64,000 nucleotides of DNA from Ascidia mentula (lineage: Eukaryota > Chordata > Ascidiacea > Phlebobranchia > Ascidiidae). Numbering within the stretch: position 1 is the first letter of the stretch; every line of letters starts with the position of its first letter. Both the position numbers and the translations under genes were made by a program. Of the stretch, positions 15,701-59,100 are shown piece by piece. The notes below the pieces were generated by a model, which saw only the letters and a list, made by a program, of their open reading frames with translations, ran no database searches and was not told the origin of the DNA. The stretch covers positions 22,201,001 through 22,265,000 of the forward strand of contig OX387199.1 of NCBI GenBank assembly GCA_947561715.1. Reading direction: 5' to 3'.

Positions 15701-18700
15701 TACCTTCAAACTCCAACTATCCGAACATATTATGTTGTGAGCGAATTAAATAAGTTTAAACGGTCGCATTTTTATGCACGTTTCATCTTCACTTCTTCCA
15801 GATACGAAACCTGCTCCCCACGTGTGCGTTCACACTGGCCTTCGGTACCATGTTTTTGAAAACTTGGAGGGTTCATGCAATTTTTACAAACGTCACAGTA
15901 AAGAAAAAGGTATTTGATTGTGATTCTGTTTTTATTTTCATCCTATACAGCACAGTAAACTCACGAGCCAGAAGTTTACAAAAATTTGATTGACGACCAA
16001 TTGTCCATGCGAGTATAAAGCGGGCAATGATTGTTTCAACAACACTTTATGAACTTTCTATTTATAATAAAATTTTAAAGTTGTAACTTGTTGTTTTGTA
16101 AAAATTACCAATCTATTTAAATAGAAGTGATGACGTTGCATGAAATGCGTTTAGATTCGAGGTCTTTAAAATTGTGGTTTTCGACGTGAAGTTGCACCTG
16201 TGTCACGCATCAGTGGCGTTGGAAAAAGTTGATTTCAGGAAGAAAAACTTTTCGCCAAACGCAAAAAATTTGCTCTAAAATTTCATTAAACTGATGTTAA
16301 CGGCCACTAGTTTGTACCAATGTTTGGGAGGCCAGGTTGGAAGGGATAATGTGACAAAATAGTGTTCTTAGTTTGATCACTGATGCGCATGCCTGCGTTT
16401 TCCCCATACTTCGTAAATATGTTTAGTTACAATACTGGTACCATAATGAAGCCAGCTGATCAATTTTGATGCAAAAGTAATGAAATTCTCTACATTTGTG
16501 ACGTAATAATAGCCTGATTTCCCTGCGTCACGTGGCAGTAACTGGTGCCACCGCTTTGCAGGTGATAAGCGACTACCAGCTTTTCGGGATTCTGGCTGTT
16601 TTTCTGTCTGTGGACGTGGTTGTACTCACAACGTGGCACGTGGTCGACCCAATAAAGCGTGTCGTAAAAAACGCCAGTGACGAGGTAAGGTTTCTGTCAT
16701 TGCGAAACATTTCAAGTGAAAACTCTGCAAGCAGACATTTTTAATTAAAACTGTGAATTTATGATTGTAAACGCGCTATGCAAAATTCTGTCAACTTAGT
16801 CTCCACCTGATCCTTTGGACAAACATTTTGTTTCCCTTGTTTTCAGCGTTGGGATGAGCAGGAAAATTTCTTCGTCATATTTCAAAACGAATTCTGCCAA
16901 AGCAGTTACGCCATCTTGTGGCTGGGTATCATATGCGTATACAAGGGCGTGCTATTGGTGAGTGATGACGCGAAATTCTCCCGGAAAAAGGGTTGAACGT
17001 AATCCTTCGGTCTATCATATCTCCACAAACTGTATGTGGGACTGGATGTTGGGGGAATCCCCTATTTTGTATTGTATGACGTAATGAACAACAACAATAA
17101 TTATATTAAAGGACGCTGCTTAATGTGGAGTAACAACATTTAAAATTTGTAGCTGAAGTCAATAAAGAAGGATTTTTTTTTGTATGCAAAACAATTTTCT
17201 ATTGAACTGGAAACGTCGTTTCAGAATGGCGAAAATTAATTCGGGCCCCAAAGAATTCAAAGCAAACTTTGGATCATTGCGTGTCATTTTATATATCTTA
17301 TAAGTGTGTTTTTGTTGAAACATTGTGTGTTAATCGGCGTAAAACTGTCTGTAAGATTGCCGACAACCCAATGGCATTTTAAGATTTTGATTCGGTTCGG
17401 AATTGGCGTCGTGAACGTTTCGTTCGTTTCGTGAAACAAAGTAACTTCACGAAAACCTCACATTTTCAGGTTTTTGGATTGTTTCTCGCCTGGGAAACGC
17501 GTCACGTTGCCTTGACAACTCTCAACGACAGCAAGTACATCGGCGCCAGTGTCTATGTCACGGTCGTGGCTTGCGTCATCGGGCCGACTACGTCGTTTGC
17601 CCTCAGGTGACGTGTGGAGTGCGAGATCTGAAAAAGCTTTAATCGATTTCCGAACTCTTGTCAAGTCGATTTTGAAATGTCACAAACCCCGGTTATCGGC
17701 TCTTCCCAGGTTTAAATCGAGTTCAAACGAAGAAGACGTCGGGAATGAATTGATTCTAGCTCGCCTTGCGCCGCTTTTGCTGCGCACGTTGGATAGAAAT
17801 CGATAGGGAGGTTTCGTCCAAAGGTTTCCACCAAAGATACCGAGTTGTCTTTAATTGCGCGAATGACTTTTTTGTAATGAAGCAATGTTGGTAAAAGTGC
17901 CTTCACTTTTTTAAAACCCGCTAGCAGTGGTCTTTACTAAATTTAAACTCTGCTGAATAATTGATTTTTAGTACGCAGAAATAGGGAAGGATTCCTAATA
18001 AGTAAAAAAATCGTCGCATAAATTGAAACAGAATGGGGGAATGATTCCAAAATCAATTACATAGTTTGCCTTGGTTTTTGTTTCCTCGTCTCTATGGTTG
18101 CGTGCCCGCTTCTGTAGGCGATTTGCTGCAACTCCGTTACCTCACAGCACTGATAATGAACACAGCAGTGTTCGAAACGTTTGCTCTTACCATAAATGGC
18201 ATATTAGCTCCGGCGTAGTGATATTTCATACAACGGCATGTTCGGCATGTTCGCCCCACGGCGCTAAGCTCTGCTGGCGTTTTTCTTTTCGCAAAGAATA
18301 CCTTGTTTAACTGTAGTAATTTGTTGTATTTCATTGTTCAGAGACTACCTGAATCTTTCCTTTACAATTTCCACGCTCTCCATTCTCCTGTGCACTACCG
18401 CCACCTTGTGCTTGGTTTTTGTACCGAAAGTGACCGCTCTGCGGCGCATGAGAGACAACCCCGACGCTCTGATGCACGTGCGTTTGCGCGGGGTAAGTGT
18501 TCTGAAAGTGTTTGTTACGTCAACAAAGTAACTGCTGTCCTGTTTCGTCTTGCAATTACATAACAACTGTCTGTACTAAATCACACAAATTATTGATATA
18601 AATTAAGGACATTAACGCATAACATATGCTTTTTAGCAGTGTTTCTAATCCTTCCGACTTGCGGGCCATAGTTTTTCTTGCATTAAAATTCTAACCTACT

Positions 18701-20213
18701 CAATGATATTGCGGTTAACACATAAAAACATAAGGTTTTTATTTTATGTTTGTGTATGTTTTATTCCTGAGACTCCCAAAAGACCGTCATTTTTGACATA
18801 TTCTCTTTGTTCATAGATGTTAGTAGTTTGTGTAACTTATGGCTTTGAATTTTCAACTCGGTTGTAGATAACATCTTCTGTGGTTTGTCGTAGATACAAC
18901 GGAAGGGGGCATCCGAGAGACCAGTGAGGAAAATGCTGTCAATGACAATCCGGTAGGAATAAATCCTCTTTATCAAATTTTCACGAACCTATGACACGTA
19001 CTTGCTCCCAACAAAGTGTTATACCGACACGCGTAAAATGCTGAGCTTTTTGTTGTTGGTATACTTCGGCCACAATATTCCCCGTGAAACCGCCGAGCAC
19101 CTGTAGCTCAGTTTTGTAGAACGTTGGGCCTGGTTAGCCCAGGGTCGTGAGTTCAAACCTCACCGGGAGCTTGATTTTTCAAATCTCGCTTCGACTTGTC
19201 AGGAAAAGTGCCCAATCCCGCGCCTGTAAACCTATTTATACATATTTATATTGTTGACTTTTTTTTGCACGAATTCGCTCGGGAAAGCAATGATTCCTTT
19301 TGACCGATGCAATATTTGAAGGTCATGGGATTCAGCTGTTCGAAAACCCGTTTTGCGGATAAATTATTGATAAGATTTGCCGTTGAGCATTAAAACATAA
19401 ACTCCCTCAAACCCTACCGACTTCTACCACAATTTCGCGCTGGCGGATTGCATCCATTGAGGTCTACGGACAATCTGTCCGTCATACACAAGTGCTGAAG
19501 CTTTGTTTGCGCAATTGAATAAACTAAGGAAAAATGCCACAAAGACTTCAGGAATTAGCGTGTTATGGTTTGTGGTGTCAACGAATCTGGCTTTTCTTGT
19601 CACATATCCAAATTACTCCGAAAGAGTGGCTGACGATTACCGCGAGTGCGATCTTTCATTATAAAGTATACATAAATAATAACTGCGCCTGAACGAAATC
19701 GTCAGTTTAAAATAAAGCTTTTAACCGAAACCACATCGTCAGAAACACACCAGGAGTAGCTCGGATGATGAGTGAGACTGTGGAGTCTTCAGTGGATGAG
19801 AAGAGGAGCAGCTCCTCCCAATCACACGATCCCAGTTCTATTCAGGACATCAAGAATCTCAGAGCGCGATTGCGAACGGAAAGGATTCGCTTGGAAAAGA
19901 TTCTAGAAGATGTGAGCGAGCACCGATATACTATAGATAGATTAATATTAATTAGACCTGATGTGATAAATTGTTAAAGAAACCAAGAATTTTTATTTGT
20001 TTTAACACAGGATTACCCCTGGCTAAGGTTTAATTAAACGTGTCAAAAAGTAAAACAAAATTTCTCGCTTAAACATTTTAAAACTCGCAAAAGTCAAATG
20101 CTGTCGTTTCTATTTTCCAGAAAAACTTCGAATTTAATTCTGCTGTTATCAAGGATACTGACAACGCCAATACAACCTCTTCACACGAAAGGCATCCAAG
20201 TTCAGTGTTATGA
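6750..20213 (+). CDS. GABBR2-like: GABA-B receptor subunit, GABBR2-like (class C GPCR)
   Basis: Twenty exons: 6750-7001, 10700-10852, 11572-11709, 11776-11946, 12302-12415, 13257-13322, 13621-13779, 13840-13932, 14092-14187, 14244-14385, 14567-14723, 15325-15457, 15802-15909, 16562-16684, 16847-16957, 17470-17606, 18342-18492, 18894-18952, 19743-19911, 20121-20213. They join in phase to 874 codons, against about 940 in vertebrate GABBR2. The protein has a signal peptide (start at 6750 chosen for it), a Venus-flytrap domain at about 45-460, seven membrane helices from about 483 to 755, and a coiled coil at about 818-842. GABBR2 landmarks include KTWRVHAIF, FLAWET, LNDSKYIG and LCLVFVPK. In vertebrates GABBR2 pairs with GABA-binding GABBR1 and couples to Gi/o; the binding serines of GABBR1 are not kept here. 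No RSRR retention motif is seen. AATAAA lies at 20235. The last three exons are the least certain. Confidence 0.93.
10317..10438. repeat. Short inverted-repeat element inside GABBR2-like intron 1
   Basis: The 17-bp arm ACTTCTGGCAAAAATTA at 10317-10333 is matched in reverse complement at about 10421-10438 with one extra T. Roughly 87 bp lie between the arms. It looks like a small MITE or foldback element. The flanks do not give a convincing target-site duplication, so the family is unknown. Confidence 0.45.
15033..15092 (+). repeat. Short tandem repeat of a GGGCGAAATATA-like unit
   Basis: Three to four imperfect copies of a unit of about 19 bp containing GGGCGAAATATATATG lie in the intron before receptor exon 12. 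It is a simple low-copy tandem repeat. Confidence 0.6.
19058..19200 (+). mobile_element. tRNA-derived SINE (family 2) in a receptor intron
   Basis: The core at about 19099-19171 folds as a near-complete tRNA cloverleaf: A-box TAGCTCAG, anticodon arm TGGGC-CTGGTTA-GCCCA, T arm GTGAG-TTCAAAC-CTCAC. The anticodon would be GGT (Thr), which eukaryotic nuclear genomes normally lack. The D stem and acceptor stem have mismatches. Sequence on both sides of the tRNA core (GGCCACAATAT upstream, TCAAATCTCGCT downstream) is shared with the copy at 51.8 kb, which marks a SINE rather than a tRNA gene. It lies in the intron between receptor exons 18 and 19. Confidence 0.75.
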
Positions 20214-21502: not shown

Positions 21503-33163
<11,661 letters not shown>

Positions 33164-34144: not shown

Positions 34145-37100
34145 CTAATCTTCTTTCTGCACAGCCGCTGTTCCAGGCTCGCCGGATTTGCGGTCTCTCA
34201 TTTTGTTTAGCAAACCCAGCCTCTGTGACATTCTACGGGCGAATAGCGCACTGTAGTGCTCAGAGGCTGTCTTGCCGAGCTTCTTATGACGTCGCCCTAC
34301 GTCACAATTGCATTTGAAGTTGCTATTTAATTGATTGTGACGCAGGCAATGGATGGAGTGAAGGACGGCTGTCTTGGCAAGCGATGGTTTCATGCAGCTG
34401 TTGTCGGTCAAAGTGAATCCCTTTATACCTCGGCTAATTACATTAGTGTGATCGTGAACCATGTTGAACCGGTGACTGAATGCGTTTAAATGCGTTTAGC
34501 ATAAGGAATTACAAAGCCACAGCAACTAAATTTGATGTGATACTTTACTAAAAGTTACACCAGGATTTAAGATGAATCACGATTTCTTCCTGTGGGATAA
34601 ACGGAAAAACTTGTTGTGGAACAATTATTTATCCGCAAGTTATGAAAGTTTGTTAAGTTGAAGTTGTGATTATACAAACAAAAAAAACTTCTTCCCAATG
34701 AATTTCACAGCAGATATATATGGGGGAATGAGGTATATATCGTGATAGTATGTTTGGAAATGAAAATGAGCGTGACATGCGATACATCATAATTTGACAT
34801 CTCTGCTTTGCAAACGAGAGATATAAATAAAGTAGCGAATCACTTTTTTTACTTTTATTGTATCATTTTCACAGAAGCTGACAAATTGATTTACCTTGTG
34901 ACAAACTTTTTTCTTGTTATTAAAAAACCACTGTTACTTTACTGAAGATAAGTTTATGCATTGATGACACTACTCACACTATCTAACACCAGCACACATA
35001 AAAAGGTTGACTCAAACACAAACAAACAATATATGTCGTCATTTCATGATGATAAAGATGGTGACGGTTGTGATGACGTAACATCAACTGAAACAATGAC
35101 GTGTCAAATGACGCATGACGTCATAAATCAAATTTGATATCACCCCGCTGTACCTGCAGGACTTTCCAACCCCATCGAAACATCTTTCTTGCGCTTTTCC
35201 CGCTCCATGACGTCATCGCGCAGTGACATAACAAGGGGCAGTCTGATGTCATAACGGAATCCTCTCTGATTGAACTGTGTGTTGTTGAGTTGGTAGAGTT
35301 TGTTCACAATATCACGACCTGTCGAATATGGAGGATGTTCGGTCTTTATTCATTGCGAACATAAGAATCAAATGTTTGGGGGTCATTCGAGTTTGATCCA
35401 ACTTTAAAGTAAGGAGTTAAACACGTGATCCTGAACTTAAAGAAATTCAAATGTACGTCGTTGCTATAGCTACAAACAAACCAATCATGTGACTCATCAG
35501 TGTTTCCAGTCGTTTGCGTTTTGCGAGCAATGAGAGAAGCGGCTTTCGTTTCCAGGTGATGTATTTACAGTCTGTCTCAGCCATGATTGTGACCTACAAG
35601 TAACATAATGACCAGAATTACAACAAGACCGCTTGCGCGTCTGGTGTAATAAATTCAAGGGGTTCGGGTCGATTCAATCCTCTTCTGGCAAAAGAAACTA
35701 CTTAATATGTCGACGTTTCGGTCGTCATGCAATTGACCTTCATCGGGACTAAGTACGTGACTTATAAAATAGCTTCTTTTACCGGAAGAGCTTTAGATTG
35801 ACTGAAAATTATGCCTGCATGGTAAAGCCAGCAACAAGAATGCATTGTGATATCTGTGTTTCCGATTTTTCGGCCCTGCTACTAGTATGTTAGTTTTAGT
35901 TTTTAATATTTGCATTCGAACACACAGGCACGACCATTTCTTGCAATCCGTATTATTTCGCACGATTAACAAATAATAACCAATTATAGGCTATACACAT
36001 ACGACAGCATTGGTCGTTTATCTTGTATTCTAGTCAACATAAGCTCAAGAAGGCGAGAGCAAGTGATCAAAGTATTTTGAAAAAGCTAAACCAATTGATA
36101 AAGAAAGCAAACAAACCTTGTAAGTTGACTTGTTGCTGGACGATTTGAGCGATTGCCACTCAGGGGAATCGATAAATTCGTTCGCTTTGATGTAATGCAG
36201 AACCTTGTTGTCGCGTGATACTCTCACTCTGAAAGGGTAATGCGTGTCAGGCAGAAGATAAATGTGTGCGAGATAATTAATGTGAATGAACGCTAGCTGG
36301 ATGTCTCCTCGTTAAGTTCTTTGTGGACTTTATTCGTAATTCCCAAATCCCAACTTTGTTTTAAAGCTTATTGGTTACACATAAATCATTTAAAATCCCA
36401 CAGTTTTTTTTATCACTCCGGGATTCGAACCCACGATATCCTGGCTCCAAATCCCTACCAGGATTTCTTCTTCCTTTGTCGGGCATTTAACCGATGTTAC
36501 CAATAAAGTTAAATATTTAAACAATCACTATTGCTCACCTGCCAGACACAAGGAGCGACAGTTTCTCAATAGGTGTTTTCCCTTCTGCAGAGTAATTGTG
36601 GCCCTTGGAGAGGGTGAGCATTTCGCAGCCCTGTAATATTTGTCCTTTAGTGTTTTGTTTGTGAGAAAAGGACAAGAAAAGTTAAATGAAAACAGCTTTT
36701 GTTGGAGAAAGTATGGTGTGGGATATTTAGGTGTGAAAAGCATGGAATTGGAAACTTCGAATAAGAAAGTCAGAGCTAATATGCTGGACGTTTTCTGGCA
36801 AAGGTTTGAGCACCAGCACTGTGGTGATCATCAGTGCTTTCAATTAGTTATCACTGATGATGAACACAGCCGTTTTCGAAAACAGGACTTAAGGATTATC
36901 TTCCTTTGAATTTCTAAGGGCATGTACCGCGTTTAGACACGAATCAGCCGCACTTTGCCCACTGTGAGTGGTGAGCTGCCCCGTTCTGTACGAATGCCCG
37001 AGGTCAGAAGTTCAAACCTCACCTAGGAATCGTGATTTTACGCATTTCACTTCCAGTGTTGTCTTTGGCCGCAATACAACTTTGATTTGTTCAAAACAAT

Positions 37101-46121: not shown

Positions 46122-47337
46122 TTTTCATTTCTTTTCATCTTTTTAGTTTTTGTTTTATAAACTTCGTTCTGCTTAACTTTTTTGTGTTTTTCATTTTATG
46201 GCAATAAACTTATTTTTACATTTTAATTTGAAGTTGTGAACTGCAGAACTTATGGAGTTATGATCAGTGCTAGATTAGGAATCTGCTGGACCCAAGGCGC
46301 CCGAAAATATTGCGTTCCATAGAGTAATAATAAAGCATTAACGAACCTAGCGAAAAGCTTATCAATCATTTTTTCCAAGCAATCACCATTCGATCGTGGC
46401 CTCTTTAATTCTGAACCCAGGCAATAAAGTTATTTAGGTGGCTTGGATTTTCGACTGGCCCTAAGGCATGTGCCTGTTGATTGGTAATTTCGCAGTAAAC
46501 ATATTATTTGTACTTTTTGATAATGATACCAGGAAACTTATTAGTGTCAGTCCAAAAAGACACTCATTGCAAATTAAACTTACATCTCACAATGAAACAA
46601 ACACTATGTTAATAGGATATAAGGAATAAGAAACCGCTGTTTGTAAAGGCACTTATTCGTGTTGTTATTCTGACGCACAAAGGCGGAAATCTTTCATACT
46701 CGTGGGAGAGGTAAACAGAAATCAGCAATTACTGACGTACAACTATGACGCAACAAAATTATTTTAAGATTTTCTGCTAATGTAGATATGTGAACCCGAA
46801 AACCCGGACACGTCTGGCGAAATCCTGATGCCTTGTAAACGCAGTTGGCTTAAATAGAAATTCTAGGATATTCCTTGCAAGTTTATGGAAATAAGGACAA
46901 TAATGATTCCAACAGAGGAACAATGCCAATAACAACCCGATATGAATGTGTCTGCAAATACCACAGTGCCATCTTGGTGATATCATTTTTGCCTGACCAT
47001 AAAGTTTCAATTATAGAATTCGTGGTAATTTGCGTCGTTGAAAATGTTTTCACCCCCAGGCTAAAACGTGCGCAAGTTATCACGTCGTTTGACGTCACAA
47101 TCGCGCTCTCTGTCAGTGGAAATGGATCTGCTGGAAAACTCGTATGTTTTGCATGCAAACAACAGTACGTATGTTGAGGTAGACTGTAATTCTGTTCCGC
47201 AAATAAAATATCACAGAAGATTACATAGGTTCGTTATGGATGGCGCACAGTGCCGGTGCTAACGACCAGGAAATGTTGTTGATAATTTTTTCAACATGTT
47301 TTTTATTGCAGCTGTTGACTAACTGTGTGGTTTTGGA
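46122..47337. other. Intergenic spacer
   Basis: It holds the 3' end of the small gene and the upstream region of the protease gene. Open frames at about 46880-47260 on either strand lack splice and family support. A TGACGTCA palindrome lies at about 47090. Confidence 0.5.
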
Positions 47338-50300
47338 ATGCAGGCTTGGGTTAACACCGCGCATGTCTTTTTGCTGGTTTTAATCTTGTTCATTGTCGGA
47401 TCTACAGAAGCAGGGAAAAGTTTGAGGTGAATGCTAACATTTTTGTTAACAATGAACATAAAGCTTGTTTTGAGGGCACTTTTTTCTGTTTTGACAAAAC
47501 TTAACTTATTTGTTTGCGTAACCAGGCAAAAAAGTCAAGTAAACATTTTTAATTAGTGTTTCGCCTTCATCAGCCCCATGTTGTTGTGCTCCATGCGAAT
47601 GCGTCTTTTTTCTAGATGCCTTCTGGGCTCAGTAGTTTTTTCTTAAAATCGTAGATTAGAGCCCACATTTGGAAACACTTAGCTTAATCGCAATATGTTT
47701 TGCACTTTCCCCGGCCAACAGTTTTCAAAATATGATAAGCAAAGTGGAGCCAATAATATATATTACACAGGGCCTGACGGCACTATTGGTTGAGCTTTGC
47801 TTGGCCATAGTGTTTCCACCTTATTTTCTCCGTAAGGTTGCACCTAGTTTGGTGCCCAACGGATGACGGTGATTGTATAGTCACCACAAAGTGGAAGTCT
47901 TTGCTTGGGCGTTTGGTCGGCAAAGTCGTCTGATAGTCACACCAGCTGCACTGATGAGACCTTATAGGTCGAAACAGTGGCCATCTGTATGCAGCTTACA
48001 CAATTTTCAGAATATTGTACAGTTTAAAAACCATGTAAAACGTGGTCTCCTGTTTTGCAATAAAGACGCATATGATACTAACACAACTTATACGTTGTGT
48101 ATCTTGCGACGCAGGTTAAGGCATCGAAGAAAAAGACAGCTCGGCCACCAAGAATGTTTCACACAAAACACAGCTCATTATCCATGCACCAAAACGGTGA
48201 TGCAGACCTTCCCCTTATATTGTGTGGGTACCTTCTACCCGTACATTTGCCAACAGTAAGTGACTCACCGAGCCAACTTCTTCGATCACAAATTATAATG
48301 TTGCGTAAATTAGTCAACACTTCACTATTTAAAGCAGTAAAGTAGCCATGGTAAACAAACATTTCCGTGCGTATTTCTTTTGTAGCTGACAGTGCAGAAT
48401 ATCAGTAAAGAAAATGAGTGTGACATGACAATGTTTCCCATAATAAATTACACGTGTTGTCGTTCTGTCAGTTATAGCCAAGAATGTTCCTTTAAAATTG
48501 TGCTTTTCCCTATGACGTCCTATTGACGAACAAGTACAGGCTCTTACATAATCCGTGTAGTGGTGATAATTCAGCATGTTTTATTGCAGGCTCCTTTTCT
48601 GGTTTTGTTGAAAAAAAAGATATTTTATTTTCTAAACTACTAGCTTTAGCGAGTTCCCCTCGCTTCATCAGGTGTAAATAATGGCAACGCTACAAAATGC
48701 GTATACAAGCACAAAACACACACATTTTGCTTTCAATGGAGATAAGACCTTAAAATTACAATTGAGAGTCACAAAACTAATACGACTTATTAAATAATTC
48801 AATTTTTTTAGACGGCCTGTAGTTATAACGACAACTTGCACCAGGACTTACAAAGTGTGTTGCGATGGATATAGTGCTCTCGGAGCAGCATGTATACACG
48901 GTTGGTTCCTTGTGGTTATGCTTATCATGCGTTTTCTTATGTGGACCGATACGAATAAATGCGGACGGGGCCTTTTACTCCTTTCGAAAACAGTTTTAGG
49001 GCAATTTTCGAATTGAAAATTAGGAGAATTGATACGGTGTATGGAACCTTTTACAGCACGGTTTCGATTTCGTCAAATCAGTGAAATGTGCCTTGGAATG
49101 ATCGGGTTTCGCCCTTAAGGCCATGTGATCGGGTGGATGGCATCCTTTTACTCAATTCTTATGCCTTAGATTCGAAAAACCCTTGCAACGGATCTCCAAT
49201 GATCATAAACAACACGTTATCGGGATTTCTGACGTCATACAATCACCCGCAGAATTATATGAATCTGATGAATTGTCAGTGGAACATAGAGGGACCGAAT
49301 AATGCCTACATTATTATTCGTGTCACCAAACTCGATTTGCAATCGCAGAGGTAACAATATTTCTGAAAATTTGAAAATTGTTGTGATTATAAAGGAAGTT
49401 TAATTGGAAACCTTACGTGTCGTTTCCTTAATTTGAATCAAGGCTAAATGTGAATCGTCTGGACAGTCTGACGATCTCTTCCCTTCAATTTAAAACAAGA
49501 ACAACCTCAGTTAAACTGGAAGCTGTATTCGATTAGAATGAAAACAAAAAATAACCTTTGTTCATGTCGATAATTTTTTTGATCATTGTCAGAAACCTTT
49601 TCATCGCTGTGCATTGAGTTTGTTAAAAAATGTTAATATTTGATCTGTGTAAAATGGCTTAAGGTAATCTAGTTACAAGATACATCTTTGTACTTTTTGT
49701 TTGTGTTCCATATTTTCGTGTAATATTTGCTACACCGATGAACATAACCTTTTTAACTTAGTGTTAATATGCTTGGTGTTTGTCTTAGATTAGTTTGCAC
49801 GCAAGGAACTTGTACGCAAGTTTGTGATGATAAACTGGAAATAAACGACGAATCGAACTCGATCAAGTTGTGCGGGTCGCGTTCCACTATCGCCTCCTTC
49901 ACTTCATCGGAAAACAAGGTCAACGTGACCTTCACCACCGACAGTCATTCTACCTACCCTGGGTTTAGAATGGAATACGTCATCATTGTCCCGGAAACAA
50001 CTACCACGACTGTTACGTCACAAGCAACAACCACGCCACAGGCGACCACCACGTCACCAACGACTACAACTTCAGTGGCACTGATCCCTTCCACGGCAGT
50101 TGGTTCGAACCGAAGTAAGCTTGTAAACTTGTTTAAAATTTTTCATGAAAAGGCGCTATTGTCACAATGGGTTTGTCTATTGGATGCATGTTGAGAAGTA
50201 GATTTGTGTTGGATTTCTATTCTTTCATTCGTTTGCGGCACACCAAACTTTTAAGTTAGTTCAAGTCAAAAGATAACAGATGACCTTGGTTAGGTGAACG

Positions 50301-53300
50301 AATTGCTTTGATTCGGGGCTACTTTTACTTCCTAGCGTTTTTTATTTTTAATTAGTAGCATCAAGGAAACCGATAATTGCAGTGGAAGTCTATGATATTT
50401 TAATACATTTTCTCGCGGCAAACCAGAACACACTTCACGGCGCACAGTTTGAGAAACCCTGCTTGGAACTACAGAAGGCGGCAAATCAGTTGTGTGTTTT
50501 CCGCTCAGGTCTTACCAACAACCTCTGTCTTGGTGATCAGGAATTCGTTCCCTGCCAACCACCTTGTAACTACCGCTGTGAATTGGGAAGAATCGTCTCT
50601 TACAATTGCTTTGCGAGGACTTGCACTCCAACCTGTGCTTGTCCCTTGGAGAGATACATTTCGCACGGAAGTCGGTGTCTCTCGGAACAACAGTGTCACG
50701 ACCAATGTATGCACTATGTTTAAGTGTATTCGTAACACCGTCTTTTGAAGTTGTTTATAACGATGGTAGCGGTATATCAAAAAAGGAGGGGGGAAATGCG
50801 GAAACAGTCTATAGGTGTTCGGTTACTGTATTTAAATCTATTTAAAACTAATGGCAATTTTGGTGGTCAATAGACGAGTAGTTAACAATGTATGCGCCAG
50901 ACAGAAAACGCTGGTCATGAACGTTAATTAATTTCAGACAACCTTTTGTCTGCCACTGCAGCGTTTCTGTGTTACAACATATTCTAGGAGGGGATGCCCC
51001 ATCCGCCCCCTCCTGTGTTCGCCCATACGTTAGGACTCAAGTTTATGGCGATGGTTGGGAACTTACGTCAATTTCCCGTTGTATTCAGTGCCACCGAAAT
51101 GCGAGGGAGTAAAGCAGCACACGACCTGTATGCGATGCCCCCTCTCCTGTCCTGGCTACGAACGGTTCGCTGCTCCATGTACAGATGCACCGGGAAACTG
51201 CAGAAACGGATGCTCCTGCCCCAGTTTTGCTCCTTACGTTTACGCGCAGAGATGCATTCCACATATACTCTGCCCCCTTCCTCCAGGTAAGCTTGTGGTG
51301 TGTTAACCAAGGTATAATTTTTTCAAGCATTGTTTCTTTGGTTGATGTGAGAGAACCGTCATACGATTCTATTTCCAGCCACATTGTGGTGTTGATATTT
51401 TCAAATTAAGATGTCGTAATGTAACGTTGGATATATCAACGAAAATCACTATTACCATGGGTACAGACAAAGCCGAGAGACTCTCACAATCCGCTCCATA
51501 AACGTCACCGTTCTTTCCTCAGTTTTCCCGCAATGCGAGGGCGGTCGAGTTTACACGGGCTGCATCACGTGTCCACGAACATGCCCGGGATGGGGAAATC
51601 CCATCACAGCAACCTGCGTGCCCGATCCAAACAACTGCGTTTCCGGTTGCGCTTGCCCGAGCTACATTCCTTTCTGGCACAACCGGACTTGTGTCGCCGT
51701 TTGTCCTCCACCACCTGGTAATCACGTACAATACTGCTACGAATCATAAGGTTTACGCAGGCTTCGCAGCCCAAGCATTGCAGTTAAGCTAGATCAGCCA
51801 TATTTATACATGCAAGTCGGAGCGAGATTTGAAAATCAAGCTTCCGGTGAGGTTTGAACTCACGACCCTGGGCTAACCAGGCCCAACGCTCTACCAACTG
51901 AGCTACAGTAGCTCAGTGGTTTCACGAGGGTATATTGTGGCCAAGGTACACTGGTGTGCAAGCGCACAATTTGCCAGGCAACCTTTACTTACGTATTGGA
52001 ACTCTACCACTACAATCACCGCCGCAATGTTTAAGGCAATGCATTCCATGAAGCAATATTTAGATGAATAGTTGCCCATTGTTTTCTTGAAAATCCTCCT
52101 GCGAGCGTTTTTGGTAAACAAGCGGTTGGTGGCAAAATAAATGGATTTCAAAAGTTGCTGTTGTGCCTAATTTATAATGATATTGTTAATATGTGAATAA
52201 CTTCATTTTTTAACACAGTGGGATTTAAATCAATTTAGCAATAAACTGCTGCTTAATACATGCACTATGAAACACACGATCAAGAATCATCATCCCTTCG
52301 GGACACAATGGAAATAAACGACAAATATCACAAATAATTGTCGAACTTTCTTGTAAGCAAAACGTATTATGTTTTACAGTGAGGAAAATTAAGTGCGGAA
52401 CGCAATACTACTTACCGAAAACAAGAATTGTTGGTAAGTTGGGGGCGATAGATTGCCTCTACATTTTTTGTAACATTTCTGATTTGTGCAATAGAAACCT
52501 CCTATCTAAATCGGTAATTTATAAAGAGGTTGCCCCGGCCCTTAATACTGATACAAGAAATTTGAATTTGACATACGTGTGTGAAAAGAGAAAGTTAAAG
52601 TAATTGGACCAGGTGCTTTGTAAGAAATTCAGAAAAAAATATTGACTTCCAAGCATGTGCGAATGCTTACGACTCTACTGGACATTCACCGTGAGTGGGT
52701 CAGCTTAAAATCATGCAGTTTTATGAAGGAATATTACAAAGCCATTTAATACGTTAGCCTTGTTATTTCTACAAATTCTATCTCACATAGACTGAATTAC
52801 TTTTGTTTATGCACTTTACCTGTTGCATAGTCTGTAGTCCTTGGCAGTCGTTACCCAATTATCCAAGAATTTATAATGACCAAATATGTCTTGTTTAAGC
52901 AGAATCCTTATTCAATTAGAATAGAAGACAAGTAAATGTTAACAATTAAGTAAAACAGTGTGACTCACATGCACCTGACACAAAGCACACTTCACAGTGA
53001 ACAGCACAAAATAATGATGACCTCCAACAGCAATAACAAACCACAATGTCATGAGGTCACCAGGTCAACACAATCCACACCACTAGGGTTGAAATTAACG
53101 ATGTTACAAAACTAAGGTACAACAACAATTAACAATTTGCCATTTCAGGTGGTGAGTGGGCAGTTGCTGGATCTTGGCCTTGGATTACTCAAGTTATAAA
53201 GGGAATACTTGGAGCTGAAAAGCACCAATGTGGCGGAACACTAATATGTTCAAACTGGATTCTAACGGCAGCTCACTGTTTTCAGCACGAAAGTGGATTT

Positions 53301-55718
53301 GTGTTGGAGTGAGTTGAGGCCTAAAGTGTTTGTTGGTAACATTTGCAAATTGTTTCTTGATTAAAACATAACGAAGTTCATAAGCATTGAAATACTGTTG
53401 AACACAACGAGAATCCGGCCCTCTATTGTAAGAATAGAAACATGTGGTTGCTAATGAATGCTTCATTTCATTCTTTTTTATGTCTATTTATTTCGCAGGA
53501 AACAAGCTTATCTGTACAGCGTCAACGTTGGGAAACACAAAAAAGGAAACGAAACGGCAAGATTGGTTGTGGTAAGATGCAAATAAAGTCTTAATGCTGC
53601 AAATAAATACTCATATGTGTCGAACTAAAATCACTTCAGTCCAATGGTTAACGCATTGTTTTCAAAACACCTGTGTATGTGTATTAATAGCAGAGCATTC
53701 GCTTGGAATATAACCGTTAAAACTGCTTGTGGTATTGTTTTCCCTCGAGGCTGCAAAAACGCCAAAAGGTTCCATGTCGCTACGAATACATGAACTTTAG
53801 ATTCACTTAAGAACGTTTAAAGGAATGAAGAACTTATAAGTGTCTAAAACCTCTCAGTACGTCTATTAATAGCAACATAGTAGCTTGGACCTTTCTCTTC
53901 CAACTTAAAAACGTGATTTACAAAGTAGGTAAGGATTAGATTTGCACGTTGTTAACCTCGTCCGAATATGCGCATAACTGCACTGACCAAAAGCGGCCTT
54001 CATCGCCCAAAATGGCCGAGATACGTCTTACCATGTCACCCTGACTAACAAACAATGCATCATTTCCGACCCAATCAAGTAACATTGCTGGGGTTTAAAA
54101 TCCCTATATTTTTTGCAGCTGCTGAAAAACTTTATGAAAAAGTTATCACGCTGAAAACAAAGGTTGTCTTAAAATTATTTTCGTTTATCACCAGCGTGTT
54201 TTGTCTGGCGCTTATATAGCTATCTACTCGTCTGTTGATCCAAGTCTCCATTTTTTTTGTATCCCATCGGGATTCGAACCCTGGATATCCTGGCCACAAA
54301 TCGCGATAAGGTTTTTATCTTGTTGTAGGGTAACCACCTACCCCATCCAGAGAAAATTCTGAATCCGTTCACACTCAATGCCTCGATCTTATGTTTCAAG
54401 TTTAATCTCAACCTGTAGAGAATATACACAGAACCAGGTTGCGGACAAAGTGGTCATCCACCCCCACTATAACTTGAACAACCACGTGAACGACATCGCG
54501 CTCATCAGAATCCCGAAGAAGATCGAGATGACACGTCACATCCGTCCAGCGTGTGTACCCGAATTTATTGATCCGTACCAGCGTGGTAGTGCCTGGGGTC
54601 CACCGATTGGTGCTTTCTGCTATGTTGCGGGCTGGGGTTCAACAAAAAGTGAGATATTTGCAGAAATGTTTGTGGTAAATAGGATACGCCTCAGCAACAT
54701 AATATATATATAGCTGTCTGCTTGACCCATATTTCTGAAATAATGTTATATAACTATATGAGCTAGGCATATCCAATACAGCAGCAAGAAAGGCTAATTT
54801 TCGGGGCAAGTTTTGACTGTAGGTTTTATCATGTTATGCTGAAATTACAACGCAGAGCGCGGACCCGCGGCAACAGTTCTAAAGCAAGCGAGTCTTCGTG
54901 TGCGATCATCCCATGAGTGCAAGCTCTTATATCAGGATTTCGATGAGCGGACGATGATTTGTGTCGGAGGTGATGGAAATCACGACACGTGTCAGGTAAA
55001 CTTTACTTACCACACCGGGATTCGAACCCGGGTTATTCGGATCAGGTTTCTCTTGGTATACGAGTTTAGCGAAGCGACTGTGTTGATGTTTGCCAATCTT
55101 TTTTTTGACCACACTGGGATTGGAACCCGGGATATCCTGGGTACGAATCCCAATCAGGTTATCGTCTTGGTATCGCACAAGTCCATTGTAAACCTCGCCT
55201 CTCTAGCGCAAGCCAACGGTAAATTAAAGACATCTTTTTTGACGTATTTACCTGAATCTACTTTTTAAGTCGAAAGTTTGTTCACACAGGGCTGAGGTCG
55301 TCCCCGCCATATTTAGCGGAAACCAACACTTTCTTGCTTTTACACCGGCTGTATTGTTCCTGCGATTAATTAATCAGTTACAGAACAATAGTTTCAACGA
55401 CAAGTTTTTGGGCAAATCCCGACAACCTAACGACTTTTGCAGTCAAACCATGAAGGCGAAAAACCCCCGAGAAAGTATCCACGCACTTTTAACCGCTGAA
55501 ATCCTTCGCAGGGGGACAGTGGCGGACCCCTCATCTGTAAACACGGACAACGGTGGTACGTCGACGGAGTGACGTCATACGGATTGAAGTGCGGCGCCCG
55601 GGGGTTCCCCGCTGTGTACACCCGCGTGACGTCATACACGAAATGGTTACGTCAGCAGATGGCCGGTTCTTCCGACTGCGCGGGTGGAGCCAATTTCGAG
55701 TGGGTTGAGAAGCAGTGA
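47338..55718 (+). CDS. Secreted multidomain serine protease: CUB, Thr-rich stalk, 3 TIL domains, trypsin
   Basis: Thirteen exons: 47338-47426, 48812-48900, 49170-49350, 49789-50114, 50383-50706, 51089-51286, 51523-51717, 52380-52433, 53149-53308, 53499-53571, 54419-54648, 54856-54995, 55512-55718; about 755 residues. A signal peptide is followed by a Cys-rich stretch ([13 protein letters not shown]) and a CUB domain at about 63-195. A Thr-rich, probably O-glycosylated linker leads to three Cys-rich TIL (trypsin-inhibitor-like) domains at about 250-467. The peptidase S1 domain is activated at TRIVGG (about 484). The triad is complete: TAAHC, NDIALI, GDSGGP. Asp six residues before the serine predicts trypsin-like cleavage after Arg/Lys. 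Where trypsins have PGVYT this has PAVYT, so the pocket glycine 226 is Ala. One junction is unsolved: exon 10 ends in phase 0, while the AG sites at exon 11 fit phase 1 or 2. Confidence 0.9.
47760..48012 (+). mobile_element. Hammerhead-bearing repeat element, copy in the first protease intron
   Basis: The stretch shares blocks in order with 58.7-58.95 kb: CCTAGTTTGGTGCCCAAC, CACAAAGTGGAAGTCT, AGCTGCACTGATGAGACC, GGCCATCTGTATGCAGCTTA and CACAATT. The last blocks form a type I hammerhead ribozyme (see 47944-47996). No coding capacity is visible. Short hammerhead-carrying repeats of this kind are known as metazoan retrozymes and as ends of Penelope-like elements; which of the two applies cannot be told from this copy. 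Confidence 0.65.
47944..47996 (+). ncRNA. Type I hammerhead self-cleaving ribozyme, apparently intact
   Basis: All parts are present in order. Stem I 5' arm AGCTGCA is 47944-47950 and the core CTGATGA is 47951-47957. Stem II GACC-TTATA-GGTC is 47958-47970, followed by GAA at 47971-47973. Stem III is ACAG (47974-47977), a 7-nt loop, then CTGT (47985-47988). H17 is A at 47989, making the cleavage triplet GTA. The stem I 3' arm TGCAGCT is 47990-47996, fully complementary to the 5' arm. Cleavage is expected after 47989. All invariant core bases are kept. It lies in the sense strand of the protease gene's first intron. This is a structural call made by hand pairing. Confidence 0.85.
50873..50984 (+). 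repeat. Dispersed hairpin repeat (GCGCCAGACA family), copy 2
   Basis: It carries AGACGAGTAG, TGCGCCAGACAGAAAACGCT, CATGAACG, TTGTCTGCCACTGCAGCG and TACAACATATTC. CAGAAAACGCTG and CAGCGTTTCTG are near inverted copies about 65 bp apart, so the RNA or single strand would form a hairpin. It lies in a protease intron. Copies occur at 41.8 kb (+) and 54.2 kb (-). Confidence 0.7.
51812..51950 (-). mobile_element. tRNA-derived SINE (family 2) in a protease intron
   Basis: On the minus strand this copy folds better than the one at 19.1 kb: TAGCTCAGTTGGTAGAGC D arm, anticodon arm TGGGC-CTGGTTA-GCCCA (GGT), T arm GTGAG-TTCAAAC-CTCAC, acceptor six of seven pairs. Homology with the 19.1 kb copy extends beyond the tRNA on both sides, so it is a SINE and not a tRNA gene. 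Confidence 0.78.
54178..54240 (-). repeat. Dispersed hairpin repeat (GCGCCAGACA family), partial copy 3
   Basis: On the minus strand: ACAGACGAGTAGATAG, then AGCGCCAGACAAAACACGCT and GGTGATAAACG. It matches the left part of the copies at 41.8 and 50.9 kb. It lies directly before a SINE copy in the same protease intron. Confidence 0.65.
54250..54350 (-). mobile_element. SINE family 1 copy in a protease intron
   Basis: Minus strand: GGTGGTTACCCTACAACAAG, AAACCTTATCGCGATTTGTG, GCCAGGATATCCAGGGTTCG (B box) and an A-rich tail. Same order as the other family-1 copies. Confidence 0.75.
55003..55195 (-). mobile_element. Two tandem SINE family 1 copies in the last protease intron
   Basis: Two units in the same orientation lie at about 55003-55085 and 55100-55195. 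Each has, on the minus strand, a TACCAAGA-like start, AACCTGAT, a B box (GGTTCGAATCCC in one, GGTTCCAATCCC in the other) and a GTGTGGT tail. They sit between the exon with DTCQ and the exon with GDSGGP. Confidence 0.78.
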
Positions 55719-56163: not shown

Positions 56164-59100
56164 CTACTTTGGTTCAACGGCTTCGTAGGTTGCTCTGAAA
56201 CCCGCGTGGCTCCCGCGTCTGCTCGAAGAAAGAACAACGAGCGCTTCGTTCCCTCCTGTGGTGAATATGAACTTGTGTGGGTGTTTCCCTGACAGGGAAA
56301 GGAACCCCGGGGAATCTGTTGTAACTCCGTCGTAGACCTTTGAGACAACAAACACTTGGACGAGGGTTTGAAGAAATCATATTTTTTTTAGCTGAATATA
56401 CTAGGGAAATGATTAAACATCATCATCAACATTGCAGTTACAAATTTTCTATATAGTAGTGATTGGTGCCATGGCAACAAGACACAATGCAATCCCAATG
56501 GTTGCTTTACTCTGACCATCAAATATTTGATTGAAATGTCATAGCGTTTACAGTGGAGCAAAGTTGCGCAGTTAAAATGGTTGATAGTCTTTTGGTCTCT
56601 CTCTATACTCTGTCTATCTCACCGTCAGCGTGTCCAGGGCATTTTCAAGGATGACCCCGAGAATCTTGATTCTGACCTGAGTCCCGAACGGGGATCTGAT
56701 GATCCAGGAACACGTGACACCAACCGGGTAAGTACCGTTAGGGAAATTTGGTGACGAGAAGTACTGAGGGTTGGAGTCGGCGTTCAGGTTTCCTCCGCAT
56801 GACGAAGTAGAAATATCGACTGAAAATATATGTTTAGGTTATTGCCCCTGTTTACATGCAATGGTCGTAAATAAGAAAATAAATATTAAAATAATTAATG
56901 TCAAGCTCTGTTTAATGGGTGCGAGTATTGGAAGATTGAGATCATGCAACAAAACCCACAGTTTAGTTATTGTACAAACCAATACTACTTAACGTAATAC
57001 AACATAGGCCAAAAAGGGTTTGACCAAACACAGGCCTATATAAACCACCTCAAGAGATTTCTTAAAGAAGGTGGTACAGATCAATGGTTGAAATATTTAC
57101 GTCAAAGTAACAATTACGATAAAACCAATTGAAAATTAGAAAATGTTGCACCAGCTGATAAATTAAGCACTTGTAAACACCGCACAGAGACACGTAACCC
57201 TTTATTTACTTACGTGTCGGTTTGTAAGTTTCGTAATAAGCAAAGAAACCCCGTCTTTGGACGATTGAATCAGTGTCAAACTCAACCCGTATGACATTTG
57301 AGCTTGATACATAGCTGTTGAAGGTGATAGGGTAACCGCTGATGACCCCGAGCTTGTCAGAATCGAACTCTGCTCCGTCGCGCACCTAAAATACAAGACG
57401 TCATCATTGTTGGAAACTTTAATATTGGATCATGGCAACGTTGTGCCATCTTTTGATGTTGTGTGTGCTGGTAGTGTGTACTGATGCAGGGTATTAAAAC
57501 CGACTATGCATTAATTTCAAACTACCGCAACATTACAGAGATTTGCATCCGACGGAAACGTTTCCCCGTTTCCAAGAATATGTGTGGTAGCAAAATATTT
57601 ACGGATGACAGCCCAGTACAAGTAGCTCGTTTAACTGAAGTTAATTTGAACAATCGTCGCCCCAATCACCAACAAACAACTAAAAATTTTTTGTACAAAT
57701 TATTTTCACGAATTCGTAACATTTTTTCTGGGAGGAGGGGGGAGTGCACTTGCCCACTTGTTGGGGGAGCACCTGGCCACTAGTACGTCTATGCGTCACA
57801 CAGAAAACAAATAGGGGCCCATGAACATCATAGCATGCTTCAGGACTAAGGCATTTCTATCGTAAAGTTTGGGTGTCATTGAAAATGTCATGCAAAATCC
57901 GCCTATTTTCTTTTCCCAAGACAGCGATCTTTGGGGCTTCAAGGAAATAACTGGGGATAATGTATCGTCACCCCAATGATCGTCTGTATTACCTTAATCC
58001 AATCGCAACATCTTTCTGTGTCAACATACGAGAACCACACCCGAACCCTCTCTCCCTCTGCAGCCCGGATGATCCAAACACACTGCAAACTGCTCTGGTA
58101 TCCATTGGCGTAATTCGGAGAACTAAAGTTTCCATGTCCGGTAGGTGGCGCCACTAACTCACCGCCACATTCTGTGGAAAAGATCCCAGAGTGGTCAAAA
58201 AAATGCTGCATCTTTTGTTTATCAGGTTGGTGACAGAAATTAAACAAACTTGGTCGAGATTAGCAAGATACGGGATTCAAACCAGTGCAGCCATCTAGCA
58301 TACATAAGAAAATGTAGGGCTTTTAGTTGTTCAAGTAGCAAATATCAATCGGTCAAATTTAAGGCAATCACACAGGTCAGAAAATGTACGCAATATGTTA
58401 TCGTACTGGAGTGGTGTCTTTACTTCTAATAGTTGTGTAACACAAGCCACTTATTTTCGCCAATACTGGAATTCAAACTCATAACTTTGAACTGAGGCTT
58501 TTAATGTTATCGATAATTCTTCCAAACTCATAAAAGTTGAAACATTTCGATTTGTTTTACCAGGATCTTCAGGTATCGTAGCTGTCATATTGCCTCGTGG
58601 AACTGAAACAAAGAAAAATATATTTATATGCGCAAAAGAGCCATAATAATCAATGAGAGCTGCAGACAGGGTGTATACACGCACTGTTTCGACCTGTAAG
58701 GTCTCATCAGTGCAGCTGTTGATGTGGCACTGTGCTAGCTGGTACCTAGTTTGGTACCCAACATATCGACGATTGACCGAAAGGTACCACAAAGTGGAAA
58801 TCTGTGTGCCTGCTAGTCTACCAGCTAGCACTGCACTGATGAGACCTTACAGGTCGAAACGACTTTGCTGACCAAACGGCCAAGCAAAGACTTCAACTTT
58901 GTGGTGACAAGAAACAGTGGCCATCTGTATGCAGCTTATACACAATTCATGTTATTGACTCCACTTTGCTTATTTTGAGAAAGACTATTTCCTTAATTTT
59001 GCCAGAATTTATCCCGCTACTAAGCTTTGTTTATTTTAACAATTCCCGTACAGCTTACTGTGTTTACTTGCAATTTTGTACTTGCGAAAAAACAGAGGAT

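Follow-up and report, generated by a model that had tools for sequence, protein, structure and literature searches.

The hammerhead ribozyme at positions 47944–47996 of the 64-kb window (the whole 64,000-nt stretch of Ascidia mentula DNA analysed here) is genuine, and the element that carries it is of an established kind, a metazoan non-LTR retrozyme. We put a probability of roughly 80% on a wider reading, in which this non-autonomous, ribozyme-bearing element passes through a circular-RNA cycle and is inserted into the genome by the protein of a Penelope-like element (PLE), with the window copy as an end product. The features read directly from the sequence are the hammerhead, a 285-bp unit, paired ends, divergent arms, target duplications of about 12 bp, homogeneity of units and likeness to PLEs. 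Retrozymes of this kind were known before; the PLE-type integration signature is the new part.

Type I hammerheads are defined by an invariant core, CUGANGA...GAAA, and an NUH cleavage triplet. The window motif, which reads AGCTGCA-CTGATGA-GACC-TTATA-GGTC-GAA-ACAG-TGGCCAT-CTGT-A-TGCAGCT on the plus strand, has all core bases, an NUH triplet (GUA, preceding the predicted cut at 47989/47990) and three helices, with helix I open-ended; stems I, II and III have 7, 4 and 4 bp, and stem II can also be drawn as 5 bp with a triloop instead of 4 bp with a 5-nt loop. With a strict descriptor of type I, requiring the core, GAAA, UH, stems II and III of 4 bp each and a stem I of at least 5 bp, two matches were obtained in the window and none in 751 dinucleotide shuffles of it, and a looser pattern, CTGATGA...CGAAA, occurs four times against 0.18 expected. 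The two strict matches and neighbouring fragments are as follows.

47944..47996, plus strand: type I hammerhead ribozyme (sequence, descriptor match, fold energy)
58658..58717, minus strand: the other complete hammerhead, from a related subfamily, B2, with GUC and a longer stem III loop (descriptor)
58859..58973: fragments of the divergent subfamily B1, 58859–58908 on the minus and 58911–58973 on the plus strand

A B2 hammerhead core on the plus strand (58831–58860) adjoins the B1 fragments, which separate it from its own stem III. Elsewhere in the window, a decayed retrozyme relic with 77% identity to the 285-bp unit lies at 27866–27976 on the minus strand, and a tandem array of 8.6 copies of a 57-bp unit occupies positions 2–489.

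The predicted hammerhead fold is competitive with the minimum. For the 53-mer, drawing stem II with 4 bp gives −15.3 kcal/mol and drawing it with 5 bp gives −16.2 kcal/mol; the minimum is −16.3 kcal/mol, which leaves gaps of 1.0 and 0.1 kcal/mol, respectively. The predicted minimum of the 54-mer is a rival pairing, CACUG/CAGUG, and the full hammerhead is the minimum-energy fold in none of three longer stretches (67, 270 and 501 nt). On these models, self-cleavage by the window motif is plausible. Comparison of 12 homologous sequences (11 distinct) revealed no pair changed on both sides, the helices being conserved in sequence. The initial annotation had described an apparently intact type I hammerhead with 7, 4 and 4 pairs and a GTA site, which the sequence and the descriptor (0 of 751 shuffles) bear out, and had named the lack of a covariance-model match above threshold as a refutation, an outcome that technically occurred: no Rfam model reached its gathering score, and the best match, to the type III model RF00008 in a shifted register, scored 25 bits against 48.5. 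The type I model RF00163 is absent from this output, which shows only the best of overlapping related families, and a search of the genome with RF00163 gave no match, but neither did its control. Because 1365 exact copies of the core exist, the Rfam gathering test is too strict for this retrozyme family.

First, the motif belongs to a large, tandemly organized family. A core pattern with 29 fixed bases has 1365 exact matches in the genome (678 + 687) and none when reversed, and matches to 47700–48120 occur on all nine large contigs (40 scored of 2558 candidates). The source genome has the mitochondrial code of ascidians: in COX1 on contig C79, AGA and AGG stand at glycine sites, TGA codes for tryptophan and ATA for methionine. 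The window copy represents a minor type with GUA, which has 8 exact 45-base matches and 50 with at most one mismatch, several of the 50 bearing a different triplet. Among the first 100 of the 1365 cores, on contig C1, all seven same-strand neighbours lie at 285–286 bp and all 11 opposite-strand neighbours within 600 bp are divergent. One array on C1 comprises an inverted arm and six units spaced at 285, 286, 285, 285 and 285 bp, the whole enclosed by a single 12-bp duplication, ATAACACCTAAT; tandem copies are seen at L069 and L070, the latter being a second array. The 285-bp unit is non-coding, with a GC content of 0.474 and a longest stop-to-stop frame of 94 codons (read on the dimer). We considered that the retrozyme might itself be an autonomous PLE and rejected this, the unit having no long frame and no reverse transcriptase or GIY-YIG open reading frame. 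The sequence marks of a retrozyme are present: a type I hammerhead in a repeat of 150–450 bp, tandem genome copies (a property of the family and not of the single window copy), a GC content below 50% and target duplications of more than 4 bp (at 24 of 41 loci, most of them 12–13 bp long). With its 285-bp unit, sometimes in tandem, the family is a metazoan non-LTR retrozyme.

Second, units within an insertion are nearly identical. Over about 208 bases, the mean difference between copies of the same insertion is 0.5% (21 pairs, with L019, an insertion at 5%, included), and that between copies from different insertions is 4.1% (759 pairs). The six units of the C1 array have four departures from the majority in common, and only two sites vary among them. 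This homogeneity fits repeated copying of one circular RNA; tandem linear transcripts could be an alternative template of the tandem units. Folded as a circle, the unit is on average more stable than its shuffles (z = −2.97, 100 shuffles), and retrozyme circles have been reported as stably folded.

Third, retrozyme insertions have a characteristic anatomy. We parsed 41 loci, chosen by similarity or intact core and not at random: 20 of the best-matching places, 20 stretches from 100 core matches (mostly of the window's subfamily) and the window itself. Many of the insertions have two arms, which point outward, and arm lengths vary. A flanking duplication with a score of at least 9 was found at 24 of the 41 loci, 18 of these being 12 or 13 bp long, and in 0.8% of 1640 mismatched flank pairs; the other 17 loci have none at that score. 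Loci L074 and L075 have a common duplication and represent a single event. Outer ends cluster near unit positions 250 (site 1) and 284 (site 2), 34 bp apart. Both ends could be classified at 18 loci: 17 of these combine site 1 with site 2, and L012 has site 1 at both ends. One side has no recognised end at 15 loci, and at the remaining eight an end fits neither site, for L070 because the retrieved sequence breaks off within the array. Divergent arms, a tail on one arm and a target duplication are together marks of PLE-type integration.

The window copy displays this anatomy.

47722..47733: target-site duplication, left copy, TTTTCAAAATAT (flank comparison)
47734..48003, plus strand: the whole 270-bp retrozyme insertion, as delimited by the target duplication
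47734..47760, minus strand: left arm, consisting only of the inverted tail, with its outer end at site 2 (end classes, unit alignment)
47761..48003, plus strand: right arm, the retrozyme body with the hammerhead at its end; outer end at site 1, no tail
48004..48015: target-site duplication, right copy, TTTTCAGAATAT (flank comparison)

The two 12-bp copies, TTTTCAAAATAT and TTTTCAGAATAT, match at 11 of 12 positions. Positions 47730–47759 on the minus strand correspond to unit positions 256–285 with 96.7% identity; the right arm covers unit position 11 to about 250, and 47765–48017 is 92.9% identical to the unit. Release of a monomer needs two hammerheads in the same direction; the window copy has one, which can cut an RNA a single time, so it should not make circles. 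The suggestion that this copy is a source of circular RNA accordingly finds no support, and the broader proposal of a retrozyme-type element with a Penelope connection is upheld by the 1365-copy family, the tandem unit and the insertion signature.

Fourth, the PLEs of the same genome leave similar marks. At least 121 GIY-YIG matches have E ≤ 0.001 (150 scored of 382 candidates), and all four PLE open reading frames tested contain GIY-YIG, with RVT_1 above cut-off in three and weak in one. In PLE families F1–F4 the arms are divergent, one end being short and the other reaching about 31–42 bp further, and where both ends can be classified (13 loci), a short end stands opposite a tailed one in 12 cases; the exception, L068, has an end that lies before site 1. 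An anchored duplication of 12–15 bp flanks 12 of 15 two-armed PLE loci (10 of the 12 being 12 or 13 bp), and 1.0% of 210 mismatched flank pairs score at least 9. Locus L031 has no duplication; at L058 and, by eye, at L049 and L050, duplications are visible but unanchored. An unanchored search on the PLEs returned internal palindromes, and the anchored search was used instead. The L049 and L050 copies (G000:C67:6133000-6150000) have open frames of up to 892 codons and are arranged both in tandem, at 2870-bp spacing, and divergently, which suggests recent PLE activity.

The resemblance lies in the anatomy of insertions and not in the end sequences. Between the 3′ ends of the retrozyme and those of the sampled PLE families F1–F6 we found no significant similarity, and we therefore leave the donor enzyme unnamed. 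The best case, a likeness to the tail of F5 that looked suggestive by eye, was set aside, since 127 of 2000 shuffles did as well even with no correction for the 14 comparisons made. Predicted hairpins at PLE and retrozyme ends have z-scores between 1.37 and −1.53 relative to shuffles, no clear gain in stability, and we make no claim of a common start-site hairpin. Other resemblances to F5 occur in the window: a hammerhead-core pattern at 36854–36881 resembles that of F5, and 28752–28857 and 18146–18190 are similar to F5 ends. Genome-wide, the F5 hammerhead pattern has 192 matches with at most one mismatch.

The integration marks of the retrozyme correspond to those published for PLEs. The PLE hallmarks given in the available sections of PMC3846280 are duplications of 8–10 bp, a pLTR in inverted orientation and, on one of the arms, a 31-bp tail that may be absent. 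Excerpts of PMC11167929 describe cleavage and extension of both target strands and two adjacent reverse transcription start sites that match the tail and are called unique to PLEs. PLEs, as portrayed in the accessible parts of these two papers and as seen in this genome, and the Ascidia retrozyme have in common divergent arms, one with a tail of 30–40 bp, short target duplications and a hammerhead upstream of the end sites. In contrast to PLEs, the retrozyme encodes no protein and its end sequences lack significant similarity to theirs; its stem III has 4 bp, whereas PLE hammerheads are described as minimal variants.

Among retrozymes, the closest known systems are the metazoan non-LTR retrozymes of Acropora, Mytilus and axolotl (PMC7229834, partial text), which, like that of Ascidia, have a type I hammerhead in a short unit, tandem copies, a GC content below 50%, duplications of more than 4 bp and PLEs in the same genome. 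The available text of PMC7229834 does not describe what is found in Ascidia: outward-pointing two-armed insertions whose end sites are paired and a 34-bp tail that is optional. That text proposes PLEs as mobilisers on the basis of common hammerheads, tandem copies and co-existence; insertion scars are a more direct link between retrozymes and PLEs than co-occurrence. According to the accessible part of PMC7761336, no conserved motif in metazoan retrozymes shows which element mobilises them. Type I hammerheads likewise occur in another tunicate genome, that of Didemnum vexillum, for which the available sections of PMC8704543 list nine loci and do not give the element context; the words hammerhead and ribozyme do not occur in PMC5006418. 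In the literature considered, which was largely without subscription papers, we noticed no earlier report of the paired-end signature of retrozymes or of the 366-bp tRNA family described below.

From these comparisons of sequence we infer mobilisation of the retrozyme by PLEs, which is well supported. In the cycle that we propose, self-cleavage, circle formation and a PLE protein acting in trans would be combined. Hammerheads would cut the RNA of tandem copies into 285-nt monomers, which would be circularised; the RT/GIY-YIG protein of a PLE would cleave both target strands about 12 bp apart and prime cDNA synthesis at either end. Synthesis of one arm would begin at site 1 and that of its partner 34 nt downstream, at site 2; the two would then meet head-to-head, with the target duplications outside, and more than one round of the circle would yield tandem units. 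Published observations also count against this scheme. Partial text of PMC3846280 states that no cross-mobilisation between two PLE types was seen and suggests, for the head-to-head arms, self-priming on an antisense template, and, as described in excerpts of PMC11167929, an anole PLE inserts in vitro with no need of hammerhead cleavage, unprocessed RNA being the main substrate, so that circles may not be the template.

A different enzyme could in principle leave inverted arms. Twin priming yields inverted copies, and their outer inverted end is an internal site of the RNA, not its start site. A LINE that moved the retrozyme by target-primed reverse transcription, with twin priming, would account for the inversion, and published work leaves LINEs open as mobilisers; we nevertheless regard this as improbable, since 17 of the 18 insertions with both ends classified have the same pair of RNA sites at their outer ends and since the site 1/site 2 pairing matches that of the PLEs of the genome, the retrotransposons with which it was compared.

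The location of the window copy invites a functional explanation. The surrounding gene, of a CUB/TIL-like/trypsin architecture, is predicted as follows.

47338..47426, plus strand: predicted signal-peptide exon (hydrophobic stretch, donor GAG/GTGAAT)
47427..49119, plus strand: predicted intron 1 of the protease gene, which holds the insertion (phase-consistent exon junction)
49120..55715, plus strand: rest of the CUB/TIL-like/trypsin gene (Pfam domains in frames)

Domain-bearing frames lie at 49085–49354 (predicted exon 49120–49350), 51420–51746, 54363–54710 and 55500–55715, with Pfam matches to CUB (E = 8.5e-7), TIL (E = 7.2e-5; 23.3 bits, just below the cut-off of 24.5) and Trypsin (E = 2.4e-10 and 4.3e-14); the frame at 50404–50748 has no Pfam match. 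A scan of 47200–47460 for bacterial-type promoters was discarded as irrelevant to an animal gene. Exon 47338–47426 joins in phase to the CUB exon at 49120, which places the insertion in the predicted intron 47427–49119, and on this gene model it is plausible that the retrozyme lies in the first intron of a protease gene, on the sense strand. That the intronic copy is a working regulator, cutting the protease pre-mRNA in its first intron, would agree with the sense orientation, the complete motif and a hammerhead fold near the minimum. We consider this very improbable: the copy is one of a repeat family numbering over a thousand, minimum-energy folds contain other pairings, and GUA with the window's loop is a minor variant (8 exact matches, 50 with at most one mismatch). 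On our reading the copy is a dispersed end product that carries one hammerhead and probably plays no part in the working of the protease gene.

Hardly tenable is the notion of MITE-like or fold-back DNA transposons, or of a dispersed satellite, with an incidental hammerhead, for although the inverted tail resembles a terminal inverted repeat and tandem arrays occur, the ends are asymmetric (a tail on one arm and none on the other), arm lengths vary, copies of the same insertion are more alike than copies across insertions, and duplications centre on 12–13 bp, as in PLEs.

A second non-coding family in the window, taken up as a potential contrast to the retrozyme, has a similar anatomy. Two tRNA-like sequences, at 51839–51912 and 19097–19171, belong to a 366-bp unit, copies of which lie at two places in the window.

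51743..52010, minus strand: copy of the 366-bp family
19064..19210, plus strand: copy of the 366-bp family

This unit is also found in tandem at constant spacing, one run on contig C73 comprising 12 units, and at L090 three inverted and two direct units form one insertion with a 13-bp duplication, AAACATTTTTTGG. Six loci (L090–L095), picked for showing both orientations, were parsed without a mismatched-flank control: all six are divergent, and four have duplications of 13–17 bp, one with a mismatch. Four of the six clearly pair an end near unit position 167 with one near 256; L093 fits this pairing roughly and L095 does not. About 88 bp separate the two end sites, a larger distance than the sampled PLEs show. 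ARAGORN calls the tRNA as Thr (GGT), and a search of Rfam with the unit, at E up to 1, returned only tRNA and no recognised ribozyme. The family looks like a second PLE-inserted, circle-like element. It is possible, and we raise it tentatively, that the PLE machinery is a general inserter of small RNA circles, priming from both target strands at two fixed RNA sites, running round the circle and acting on at least two unrelated non-coding families; the families served would be the hammerhead retrozyme and the 366-nt unit with its complete tRNA-Thr-like sequence, whose circle, with no recognised ribozyme in the unit, would have to form in another way.

The literature has left open what mobilises animal retrozymes, and the insertion scars of Ascidia point to PLEs. 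Published long reads and RNA-seq exist for A. mentula, in which circles and cleaved ends could show. If PLEs insert circular RNA, such RNA has a route into the DNA of a near relative of the vertebrates.
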